A stretch of 44,172 bases of DNA, from the NCBI GenBank assembly GCA_035499655.1, contig DATJYL010000069.1, positions 1-44,172 on the forward strand, given 5' to 3'. Positions 10,434 through 13,821 of the stretch are shown here, in pieces (position 1 is the first letter of the stretch; the number at the start of each line of letters is the position of its first letter). Under the pieces are notes generated by a model, which searched no databases, was not told the DNA's origin, and worked only from the letters and a program-made list of their open reading frames with translations. Made by a program: the position numbers and the translations under genes. Source of the DNA: Pirellulales bacterium. Lineage in GTDB: Bacteria; Planctomycetota; Planctomycetia; Pirellulales; JADZDJ01.

Positions 10434-10882
10434 GGAAGGCAAGCGTTCGTGCGTGACAATAAGTCTGGCAGAGAATTTTGCTGGACTCTTATGATTTCAG
10501 TCCACTTGTCGTGCTTGTCAGATTCCCGTGCTACAACGGCGCGATCGTCTCAGAAATCGTCTCAATTCGAGACTGCCCTTTCGGCATGAGCTAGGATTTA
10601 TTTAGGAAGCCTGTTTCTAGTGTGCCAACATCCCATCGAAGGTTGTATGGGTACAATAAAAGTGAAAAGTACTATTGTCTAATGTTTTGCGATGAAATTG
10701 CTGTCCAGCATCCCTCAAAAAGCGTCTGAAATGGTTACAGCAATTGTCGCAAATCTTTGACAGGCACGGCACTTGCAACTGTAAGGGGTATCAACGTCCG
10801 ACCCCTTTCAAGGCGCGATTATTTTTCTCATCTACGCTCATCGTGTGCGCTTAAATGGTGAGGCGGACAGAAGGAAAACGCC
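10434..10882. other. 449-base intergenic region upstream of the sigma factor gene
   Basis: I see no gene, tRNA or long repeat here. It contains a short palindrome (GTCTC, AATTC, GAGAC) at 10559-10573 with no T-run, several AT-rich tracts around 10620-10700, and the promoter candidate listed separately. A ribosome site (AAGGA) lies just before 10883. Confidence 0.6.
10757..10785 (+). promoter_or_regulatory. Possible housekeeping-type promoter for the sigma factor operon
   Basis: A perfect TTGACA (10757-10762) is followed after 17 bases by TGTAAG (10780-10785), four of six matches to the -10 consensus. It lies about 100 bases before the sigma gene start. No second -35/-10 set typical of autoregulated ECF promoters (GGAAC-type) was seen. 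Confidence 0.4.
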
Positions 10883-11638
10883 ATGTATAATGCTCGTGCT
10901 TTATCCCAGGGGGTATGGGCCAAACTTTACCCCCTAGGTTCGCCCGCTGCACCGCGAACCGCTTCCCGTCCGGAACGTATAAAAATGAGTAGTGCCATCG
11001 ACATACCATCGCAAACCGAAAATTCAGAAGCCTGGTCGCGGAAGTCCGACGAAGCGCTTCTGTTGGAGCATCGGTTGCGAGGGAGTCGTCGGGCTTTTGA
11101 GGAGTTAGTGCAACGTTACGAACGCGAACTTTATAGCTACCTGCGTCGCTATTTGAGCGACGCCACGCTGGCCGAGGACGTGTTCCAGGCGACGTTCCTG
11201 CAGCTACACTTGAAGGCCGAACAGTTTGAGGAAGGACGCAAAGTGCGTCCGTGGTTGTACACTATTGCCACGAATCAGGCGATCGATGCCCAGCGCCGCA
11301 ATCGGCGTCACAAGATGGTCAGCCTGGATCGGCGCGGTCACAGCCAGGAGTTGCAAGACAACGTGGGCTCGCTGCTCGATTTGCTCACCAGCAAGGAGCC
11401 GCAAGCCGCCGATAACTTAGAGACAGATGAACGTCGCCAATGGGTGCGCCAAGCCATTGCGCAATTGCCCGACGCCCTGCGGGAAGCGGTGTTGTTGGTA
11501 TACTATCAGGGAATGAAATATCGCGAGGCCGCTGAGGTGTTGGACATTCCGGTTGGAACCGTGAAGAGCCGGATGCACGCTGCCATTTTGAAGCTGAACG
11601 AAGCCTGGATTCAACATCATCCGAGCGAAGATGAGTAA
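10883..11638 (+). CDS. RNA polymerase sigma factor, sigma-70 family, ECF type
   Basis: This is a two-domain alternative sigma factor of 251 residues. Region 2 covers about residues 70-150: AFEELVQRYERELYSYLRRYL, the DVFQATFLQL acidic helix and the RPWLYTIATNQAIDAQRRN DNA-melting segment. Region 4 covers about 185-240, ending in the helix-turn-helix AAEVLDIPVGTVKSRMHAA. It has no region 1.1 or 3. The start at 10883 has a good ribosome site (AAGGA, seven bases). An internal ATG at 10985 (MSSAIDIP) gives a more typical length but no ribosome site. Its last eight bases overlap the next gene's start, so the two are translationally coupled and the neighbour is almost certainly its regulator. Confidence 0.93.
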   Translation: MYNARALSQGVWAKLYPLGSPAAPRTASRPERIKMSSAIDIPSQTENSEAWSRKSDEALLLEHRLRGSRRAFEELVQRYERELYSYLRRYLSDATLAEDVFQATFLQLHLKAEQFEEGRKVRPWLYTIATNQAIDAQRRNRRHKMVSLDRRGHSQELQDNVGSLLDLLTSKEPQAADNLETDERRQWVRQAIAQLPDALREAVLLVYYQGMKYREAAEVLDIPVGTVKSRMHAAILKLNEAWIQHHPSEDE

Positions 11639-12602
11639 TTCCATCCGCGAGCACTTGATTGGTTATTTGATTGGGGCCGCCGAGCCCGAGGAATGCTCGT
11701 TGGTGGAGCAGCAATTGGCGCAGGATGAATCGGCGCGCCGCGAATTGGAATTGCTGCGGTCAAGTTTGCATCCATTGGACAGTGACAGCGCGCACGAGGA
11801 ACCGCCCGCCGGGTTGGCGCAGCGTTGCTGCGATTACGTTTATTCTCGGACCGAGGTTTTGCCCGCCGCGCTGTCGGCAGCGGCTAGCGGCACCTCAACT
11901 AAGGCTACGCGGCGCTGGTCGCGGTTGGAGCTGGCGGTCGCCGGCGCCATAGCGGCAGCCGTGGCGGTGTTCCTGCTGCCGAAAATATATCAAAGCCAAA
12001 TCCAAGCTCAACTTTTGGCCTGCCAGAATAATTTGAAGGACATCGGCTTTGCCGCGGCAGATTATAGCCAGCATAACGGCGGGTACTATCCGGCCGTGCA
12101 ACCTGGCGACCGCATTAATGCCGTGGGGATGTGGGCCCCCACGTTGGTTACGCAACAATATATTCCGCCATCGGGCAAAACGATGATTTGTCCTTCGTCC
12201 ACAGACGCCGGCATTTCGAACTTTCACGTTCCGACGGTCGAGGAAGTGGAAGCTTTGGACGCTGCGCGCTTGGCACAAGAGTTACCGCAATTAAGTGGCA
12301 GCTACGGCGGCCCGGTCGGCTACATGCAAGATGGGAAATATAAATTGCCCCGCAATCAGGGTCGTTCAAATATGGCGGTATTTGCCGATCGCCCTGGAAA
12401 GAATGGCACCAATAGCCCCAATCACGGCAGCGGGCAAAATGTGTTGCGCGACGACGGGAGCGTGATCTATTTGACCACGCCAGAAATTGGCCCGAACGCC
12501 GATAACATCTACCTGAACCGCAACCACGAAGTAGCGCCCGGGGTGGATGAAGGGGACTCGGTGATCGGAGACAGCGCGCTAAAGTTACCGCCCTTGCCGT
12601 GA
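11631..12602 (+). CDS. Membrane anti-sigma-like protein with pseudopilin H-x9-DG domain
   Basis: The 323-residue protein starts inside the sigma gene. Residues 1-50 resemble a zinc-less anti-sigma domain (HLIGYLIGAAEPEECSLVEQQLAQD, then a leucine-rich helix). A basic stretch (KATRRWSR) and one membrane helix at about 99-119 follow. Residues after the helix mimic a planctomycete DUF1559 pseudopilin: CQNNLKDIGFAAADYSQHNGG at 131-151, then CPSS, and NHGSGQNVLRDDG at 264-276, where His265 and Asp275-Gly276 form an exact H-x9-DG motif. The N-terminal region would hold the sigma factor in the cytoplasm and the pilin-like part would face the periplasm. The prepilin cleavage motif (GFTLVE-type) is absent, so the helix should stay in the membrane. 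Confidence 0.8.
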   Translation: MSNSIREHLIGYLIGAAEPEECSLVEQQLAQDESARRELELLRSSLHPLDSDSAHEEPPAGLAQRCCDYVYSRTEVLPAALSAAASGTSTKATRRWSRLELAVAGAIAAAVAVFLLPKIYQSQIQAQLLACQNNLKDIGFAAADYSQHNGGYYPAVQPGDRINAVGMWAPTLVTQQYIPPSGKTMICPSSTDAGISNFHVPTVEEVEALDAARLAQELPQLSGSYGGPVGYMQDGKYKLPRNQGRSNMAVFADRPGKNGTNSPNHGSGQNVLRDDGSVIYLTTPEIGPNADNIYLNRNHEVAPGVDEGDSVIGDSALKLPPLP

Positions 12603-12939: not shown

Positions 12940-13821
12940 ATGCACGCCCGCGAGCTTATCGATCTAGCCGTTTTTGTAGCCGCGCAAGGACCTGTCCTGT
13001 TGGGTAGCGTGCGGCAAGTTCCCACGACGGCGCTGTCGCAGTATTGGACGGTGTCTAAGTGCCGATTGGATCGCTGGAACCGCACACTCCGCGAAGGGCA
13101 AGTTCCAGCCGCTGCTCGCCACGACGAACTAGCAACCGGTCGCGGTTTGCAAGCCGTGTGCGAAGAAATTCTCATTAGCGAAATGCTCACCCGCGTGTGG
13201 TCCAGCATTTTAACTGCGTTGGATTATGTCTCACAGAACAATGAAGCGCAACCTGTGGCCGCCAGCGTGCTGGCCGGGCATCTGGAAGCATCGAACCGGG
13301 TGCTGAGCCTGATTTCTTACAATCCCCAAGCCGCACTGAACAACGAAGGCGAGCTGAACCGCTTGCGCCGCCTGACCGAGCGATGGACCGATTTGCTGTT
13401 GGGCAGCCTGGGGTCGCTGATTCATGCACCTCAATTTGCTCACGATGCGGTCCGAGCGGAAGAATTTTCCCGCGACTTTGACCGTTCGCGTCAACCGCAC
13501 GTTCGATTACAAGCTTGGAATTTAATTTCGGCATCGTTGCGCAGCACGTTCGAGTCCCATTTGCATGGGGTTACGCCCAACGCCGATTTGAACAGCAGCA
13601 TTGCCGGGGCCGTTTTGGTTTGCTTTCCGGCGCATTTATTCGATTCCACAGGCGTTTATCATTCGCTTTGGAATCTGCGGTTATCGGCCATGACCAGTGA
13701 TACGCAAAACATGGTGGACCAACTCCTGGCGGCCGATTCTCCTGAAGAAGCATCAAAGCCCGGCTTCTCTTTGCCTAAGCTCCACAGAAGTGCGGGGACG
13801 CGTCATTCCAGGCTGGAATGA
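12940..13821 (+). CDS. Unrecognised helical protein
   Basis: This 293-residue protein matches no family I can name. It starts MHARELIDLAVFVAAQGP and is predicted by eye to be mostly helical. It has many leucine, alanine and arginine residues, no membrane segment, no signal peptide and no cysteine or histidine clusters. Two stretches, LDRWNRTLREGQVPAA near residue 44 and LNRLRRLTERWTDLLLGSLGSL near 148, look like amphipathic helices. Codon use resembles the neighbours, so it looks like a resident gene, probably conserved in planctomycetes. The ribosome site is weak. It converges on oppF with only ten bases between the stops. Confidence 0.7.
   Translation: MHARELIDLAVFVAAQGPVLLGSVRQVPTTALSQYWTVSKCRLDRWNRTLREGQVPAAARHDELATGRGLQAVCEEILISEMLTRVWSSILTALDYVSQNNEAQPVAASVLAGHLEASNRVLSLISYNPQAALNNEGELNRLRRLTERWTDLLLGSLGSLIHAPQFAHDAVRAEEFSRDFDRSRQPHVRLQAWNLISASLRSTFESHLHGVTPNADLNSSIAGAVLVCFPAHLFDSTGVYHSLWNLRLSAMTSDTQNMVDQLLAADSPEEASKPGFSLPKLHRSAGTRHSRLE

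Follow-up and report, generated by a model that had tools for sequence, protein, structure and literature searches.

The closest described counterparts of the gene pair analyzed here are RpoE-RseA, which has DegP in its regulon, and SigW-RsiW, in both of which an ECF sigma factor and a membrane anti-sigma factor with N-terminal anti-sigma helices are encoded in one operon. Further points of comparison are the DUF1559 or H-X9-DG pseudopilins (PF07596, TIGR04294) and PilA-PilS autoregulation in Pseudomonas, where a pilin in the inner membrane feeds a transcription circuit involving sigma54. DUF1559 is represented by 68 paralogues in Planctopirus limnophila, two of which are essential (PMC10632474). 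A sigma54 promoter driving an ECF sigma gene has a described precedent in HrpL (PMC8103513), which differs from the pair described below with respect to its type III secretion (hrp) regulon and the anti-sigma factor. ECF/anti-sigma pairs with varied sensor domains are known, and no anti-sigma factor with a pilin domain, and no pilin body acting as a sensor, was found in the literature searched (open-access; most subscription journals and several key ECF classification papers lie outside this scope).

We analyzed a 44,172-nucleotide contig from a Pirellulales bacterium (hereafter the window; "order" refers to Pirellulales and "class" to Planctomycetia). The gene pair that it carries resembles RpoE-RseA and SigW-RsiW in its operon arrangement, in its N-terminal anti-sigma helices and, judging from promoter-like sites, in predicted autoregulation and in HtrA/DegP as a predicted target (22/30 genomes). 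Unlike those systems, the pair has a pilin-type periplasmic part, two ABC transporter operons among its predicted targets, a sigma54-type promoter 5' of the sigma gene in this order, and no zinc motif. Whereas PilA-PilS divides the pilin and the sensor kinase between two proteins, here a pilin body is fused to an anti-sigma domain that would act on an ECF sigma factor. We think it likely that the pair, together with its proposed regulon, constitutes a cell-envelope stress switch composed of an ECF sigma factor and a membrane anti-sigma factor with a pilin-type sensor.

An ECF sigma gene and its neighbor form a conserved pair

The sigma gene extends from 10883 to 11638 on the + strand in its long form and overlaps by 8 bases an ORF on the same strand (11631–12602) that encodes a 323-residue anti-sigma/pilin chimera; the ORF coordinates confirm the overlap described in the original prediction. 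The sigma protein consists of Sigma-70 regions 2 and 4 only, both above threshold, as is characteristic of ECF factors: Sigma70_r2 (PF04542) was matched with 67 bits (E = 1.3e-18), Sigma70_r4_2 (PF08281) with 62 bits (E = 3.3e-17), and TIGR02937 with 110 bits against a cut-off of 42.9. Located 3' of the pair is an ORF of 293 amino acids (window positions 12940–13821) that has no Pfam match at E≤1e-5. An Rfam scan of the window found no RNA family.

Full-length homologues of the chimera are found throughout the order and also in further families of the class. A search of 97 order genomes recovered full-length relatives in most of the 20 families sampled, and of the 70 order loci read, 69 have the sigma gene 5' of the chimera gene and on its strand; the remaining locus begins at a contig end. 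A second set comprised 40 loci chosen because the class-set match was full-length (34 from other orders and 6 from one family of the same order), and the sigma gene is adjacent in all of them. The fusion of an anti-sigma domain to a pilin-like region beside an ECF sigma gene, for which a search of planctomycete genomes had been proposed, recurs across the class, with the two genes adjacent in 109 of 110 loci, and its position next to the sigma gene is that of class I anti-sigma factors. Among 149 genomes sampled over the phylum, those outside the class yielded no full-length fusion and only five weak partial matches. A well-sampled family within the class (f22) contains many DUF1559-like candidates and no full-length fusion. 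A collection of named genomes contained no relative for the window protein and one full-length relative when a second query was used. The window's genome is a draft of 244 contigs, which might suggest that two genes were joined by misassembly or by a wrong reading frame; however, the same full-length fusion is present in dozens of independent assemblies, single-contig genomes included, which refutes this explanation, and we give it virtually no credence.

The N-terminus resembles class I anti-sigma domains

Residues 1–71 of the chimera (11631–11843, + strand) correspond to a class I-type anti-sigma domain. An NCBIfam anti-sigma profile matches residues 9–131 of the window protein with an E-value of 9e-13, below the curated cut-off, and matches 65 of 68 orthologues at E≤0.01. 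To compare structures, we used an AlphaFold model built from the alignment of the 68 orthologues (pLDDT 91.5), in which residues 1–71 align by VIA with RsiW (Z = 7.0), RslA (Z = 6.6), and MucA (Z = 6.3) and adopt the three-to-four-helix N-terminal sigma-binding fold of class I anti-sigma factors (ASDI). The Hx3Cx2C motif of zinc-binding anti-sigma (ZAS) factors was found in 0 of 68 orthologues. The Pfam and NCBIfam matches, the conserved adjacency, and the model alignment agree with the original assignment of the pair as an ECF sigma factor with a membrane anti-sigma factor encoded next to it, and the N-terminal domain is predicted to bind the sigma factor.

The membrane helix and predicted periplasmic part are of pilin type

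The sole predicted membrane span of the chimera is a pilin-type alpha-1 helix (residues 96–148; 11916–12074, + strand), and the remainder (residues 149–323; 12075–12599, + strand) is the predicted periplasmic globular part of a pilin-derived sensor. When the window protein is considered alone, Pfam DUF1559 (PF07596) scores 15.6 bits over residues 130–155, which is below the gathering threshold of 23.3, and a PDB sequence search with this protein was likewise not decisive. DUF1559 is matched at E≤0.01 in 39 of the 68 orthologues (best 5.5e-9), with the H-X9-DG and GspG profiles matching 8 and 3 of them, respectively. Profile-profile comparison of residues 95–323 with the DUF1559 proteins of the same genome gave an E-value of 1.5e-15, and the profile of residues 160–323 alone still aligned at the H...DG end (E = 4e-5); the profile of the anti-sigma part (residues 1–90) gave no alignment with these proteins. 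By these orthologue matches and profile alignments, the likeness is more than chance. The original prediction had placed a DUF1559 segment beside the membrane helix, beginning at residue 130; the likeness itself stands, but it begins at about residue 96 and includes the helix.

The model supports the same conclusion, as residues 93/96 to approximately 300 align with type IV pilins beginning at residue 1 of the mature pilin, and the long alpha-1 helix (98–148) is followed by strands as in the type IV pilin/pseudopilin fold. The VIA Z-scores range from 3.1 to 5.9 (PilA4, 5.9; enterotoxigenic E. coli type IVb pilus, 4.6; gonococcal pilin, 4.2) and are modest taken singly, while the sequence profile agrees independently. 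A Foldseek comparison of the model to the PDB gave no match with E≤0.001; the structural claim rests on the VIA alignment and the sequence profile. Both accord with the proposal that a pilin fold was reused as the periplasmic part of the protein. A single-sequence fold of residues 95–323 reached a pLDDT of only 39 and was discarded.

With Trp96 assigned to position +1 of a mature pilin, an acidic residue occupies +5 in 68/68 orthologues (Asp in 65, Glu in 3), Pro occupies +22 in 66/68, and Cys occupies +36 in 60/68; the window protein has Glu, Pro, and Cys at these positions, in the same register as genuine DUF1559 pilins. This exact register, together with the pilin alignment, identifies the membrane helix as the pilin N-terminal helix. 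In addition to the alpha-1 register with its Pro +22 and Cys +36, the chimera shares with the DUF1559 pseudopilins a C-x-N-N-L-x-x-[IL]-G segment and a C-terminal H...NVLF-x-DG segment. It differs from them in scoring under the Pfam cut-off, in a spacing within the latter segment that is commonly x10, and in having mostly Asp at +5, where all 25 genuine pilins examined from the same genome have Glu.

A further difference between the chimera and the pseudopilins lies at the junction, where the anti-sigma domain occupies the place of the leader peptide and the prepilin cleavage site has been lost. The 25 DUF1559 proteins of the same genome have Gly (13) or Ala (12) at −1 and invariably Phe at +1, whereas the window protein has Arg and Trp at these positions. 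This confirms the earlier observation that a GFTLVE-type cleavage site is missing, with Gly retained at −1 in only 9 of 68 orthologues and Ala in 7, a minority that could in principle still be cleaved by prepilin peptidase.

Invariant residues in the predicted periplasmic part

The H-x9-DG motif of the window protein (His265...Asp275-Gly276; 12423–12458, + strand) falls in columns of the 68-orthologue alignment in which His is present in 68, Asp in 57, and Gly in 59 sequences. Although the residue numbering and spacing originally given for this motif are correct, the exact x9 spacing is unusual, being found in only 2 of 68 orthologues; x10 is commonest, and the window protein has a one-residue deletion in the H-DG stretch relative to most orthologues. 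The H...DG segment is homologous to the end of DUF1559, and the exact x9 count is a coincidence, a quirk of this lineage.

Asp253, His265, and Asp309 (12387–12389, 12423–12425, and 12555–12557), all predicted to be periplasmic, are invariant in the 68 diverse orthologues, and Asn296 and Gly304 are nearly so. The three invariant residues may form a metal or ligand site. This conservation bears on whether the pilin-derived part could be a passive membrane anchor and stable cap, with sensing taking place elsewhere, e.g., in a partner protein. RseA-like systems do depend on partner proteins, and no ligand site is known for the domain, but invariant residues of this kind would be needless for a mere anchor, and we consider this explanation quite improbable.

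Two promoter-like sites precede the sigma gene

A sigma54 (RpoN)-type −24/−12 site, GGCACGGCACTTGCA, lies at 10763–10777 on the + strand and is the only such match in the window. Its GG (−24) and GC (−12) are spaced 10 bp apart, and a site of this type occurs at a conserved position in 44 of 66 order loci, whereas the opposite strand has it in 1/66 and the number expected, judged from other windows, is 2.4; use as a promoter is predicted on this basis. The second set contains the site in 1 of 40 loci, and that locus is from the same order.

An unbiased scan of spaced word pairs upstream of the sigma gene returned GAA/AAC-N17/18-CGT/GTA, and a corresponding ECF-type promoter, GAAC-N16-CGTA, lies at 10956–10979 (+ strand), 5 nt before the ATG at 10985, where it is predicted to be autoregulatory. 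The GAAC-N16/17-CGTA form resembles known ECF promoters. The single GAAC-N16/18-CGT[AC] match in the window is not significant alone, and of 67 order loci, 59 have the pattern 5' of the sigma gene, mostly a few nucleotides before the start codon, versus 4 with it on the opposite strand; of the 53 loci in which a CGTA form lies near the start, 49 have an ATG within the next 8 nt. Both the sigma54-type and the ECF-type site were present in 5/5 held-out order loci, some of which are closely related to loci used in discovery. In the second set the ECF-type pattern occurs in 1 of 40 loci. As the motif is thus missing at the sigma locus in the class outside the order, autoregulation by a GAAC/CGTA site would be order-specific.

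The ATG at 10985, just after the ECF-type promoter, is probably a start of the sigma protein in addition to or instead of 10883, and would yield a short form of 217 aa. The long start at 10883 is preceded by a Shine-Dalgarno-like AGAAGG (10869–10874, + strand), and this sequence, the ATG, and the N-terminal extension are conserved within the window's family (three genomes) and are not general in the order. Because a conserved Shine-Dalgarno sequence and ATG exist at 10883 besides the start at 10985, two forms of the sigma protein are possible, and transcripts from the sigma54 and ECF promoters could encode different isoforms.

Several other features were observed in this region. Two G/C-rich inverted repeats (10780–10810 and 10905–10938) fall in the leader that separates the sigma54 site from the start of the sigma gene, and an inverted repeat, AATGTTTTGCGA / TCGCAAATCTTT, at 10681–10692 and 10747–10758 lies just 5' of the sigma54 site as a possible activator site. 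Across loci, the signal for a TAA-N19-TTA dyad 5' of this site was marginal, with 10 of 31 loci having it versus a shuffled maximum of 9. In about 15 order loci (e.g., L045 and L059), the stretch 5' of the sigma54 site shows strong similarity from one family to another and looks like the beginning of a divergently oriented coding sequence with the apparent peptide NAFFGLMLDN; such a gene does not adjoin the window's pair.

ECF-type sites recur upstream of htrA and two ABC transporter genes

The original prediction had called for the regulon promoter to be found, and a candidate is GAAC-N16/17-CGTA: sites common to the window's genome and a congener lie before htrA and two ABC ATPase genes as well as before the sigma gene itself. 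The motif is not enriched across the window's genome (36 sites versus 108 for a reversed control), and hence the regulon rests on cross-genome conservation, with single sites not taken as targets. Among 30 order genomes, the site precedes the HtrA/DegP gene in 22 (none on the opposite strand and none with the reversed motif; expected 0.06), with one such site in the window's genome; it precedes the gene for a DrrA/GldA-like ATPase (ABC1) in 23 (opposite strand 3, reversed motif 0, expected 0.35) and that for a LolD/DevA-like ATPase (ABC2) in 21 (opposite strand 0, reversed motif 6, expected 0.14). These counts are not independent trials, since the discovery genomes are included and the genomes are related; the excess of sites over expectation is large and spans many families. 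The htrA product is a Do-family protease, and ABC1 and ABC2 are adjoined by a permease-like ORF and an FtsX-like permease ORF, respectively, the permeases being named by inspection only. When 28 genomes were scanned with a leaderless-style pattern, the hits were the sigma genes, a recurrent near-identical sequence that most of the genomes contain and that is probably rRNA, and for the rest mostly chance-like sites; the pattern was set aside.

The recurring ECF-type sites point to an RpoE-like system for envelope stress that is autoregulated and has a sensor derived from a pilin, in which the sites would serve as promoters read by this sigma factor rather than by a paralogue. Planctomycete genomes encode many ECF factors with overlapping promoter preferences, and the ECF motif is missing at the sigma locus in the class outside the order, so the chimera could be as described while the htrA and ABC sites are read mainly by another ECF sigma factor of the same promoter preference. 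However, the site lies directly before the start codon of this sigma gene in most order loci, the typical position for autoregulation, and we judge a different reader to be unlikely.

None of the 29 DUF1559 pilin genes tested in the window's genome has an ECF-type site, a result that bears on what the sensor detects. Secretion or pilus state, as originally suggested, is a possible signal but finds no support in this result or in the predicted targets, which are HtrA/DegP and two ABC transporters. In one such scheme, the uncleaved pilin helix would dock with the secretion/pilus assembly machinery or the DUF1559 pseudopilin pool, and a change in that state would release the sigma factor. The acidic +5 residue, Pro +22, and the helix register are all retained despite loss of the cleavage site, the same genome is rich in DUF1559 genes (45 matches), and PilA acting on the PilS kinase in the membrane offers a parallel. 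Set against these points are the 0/29 result, the protease and transporters among the predicted targets, the occurrence of Asp rather than Glu at +5 in most orthologues, and family f22, with its many DUF1559-like candidates and no fusion. We therefore regard docking as conceivable, if doubtful. A fuller version, in which an unprocessed pseudopilin is the sensor and docks so that secretion traffic directly sets an envelope-stress sigma factor, with sigma54 priming the operon, strikes us as rather doubtful. The retained +5 acid leaves room for contact with pseudopilins, though nothing here favors such contact.

Discussion

In the envelope-stress switch that we prefer, the cytoplasmic N-terminal helices would hold the sigma factor, and a single membrane helix of pseudopilin origin would connect them to the periplasmic pilin-type sensor domain. 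An envelope signal that disturbs this domain would cause the anti-sigma factor to release the sigma factor, probably through regulated proteolysis or conformational change. The freed sigma factor would then transcribe its own operon, htrA/degP, and the two ABC transporter operons from GAAC-N16/17-CGTA promoters, and in this order the upstream sigma54 promoter could also supply the operon.

If this is correct, the chimera would add a new kind of sensor to those through which ECF sigma factors respond to the periplasm, one in which a pilin body has been reused for signaling by exchanging its leader peptide for an anti-sigma domain. It would link one branch of DUF1559, a very large and poorly understood planctomycete family, to a regulatory role with named candidate targets, and would provide this order, for which no such regulon was described in the literature searched, with an RpoE-like envelope-stress regulon that can be tested.
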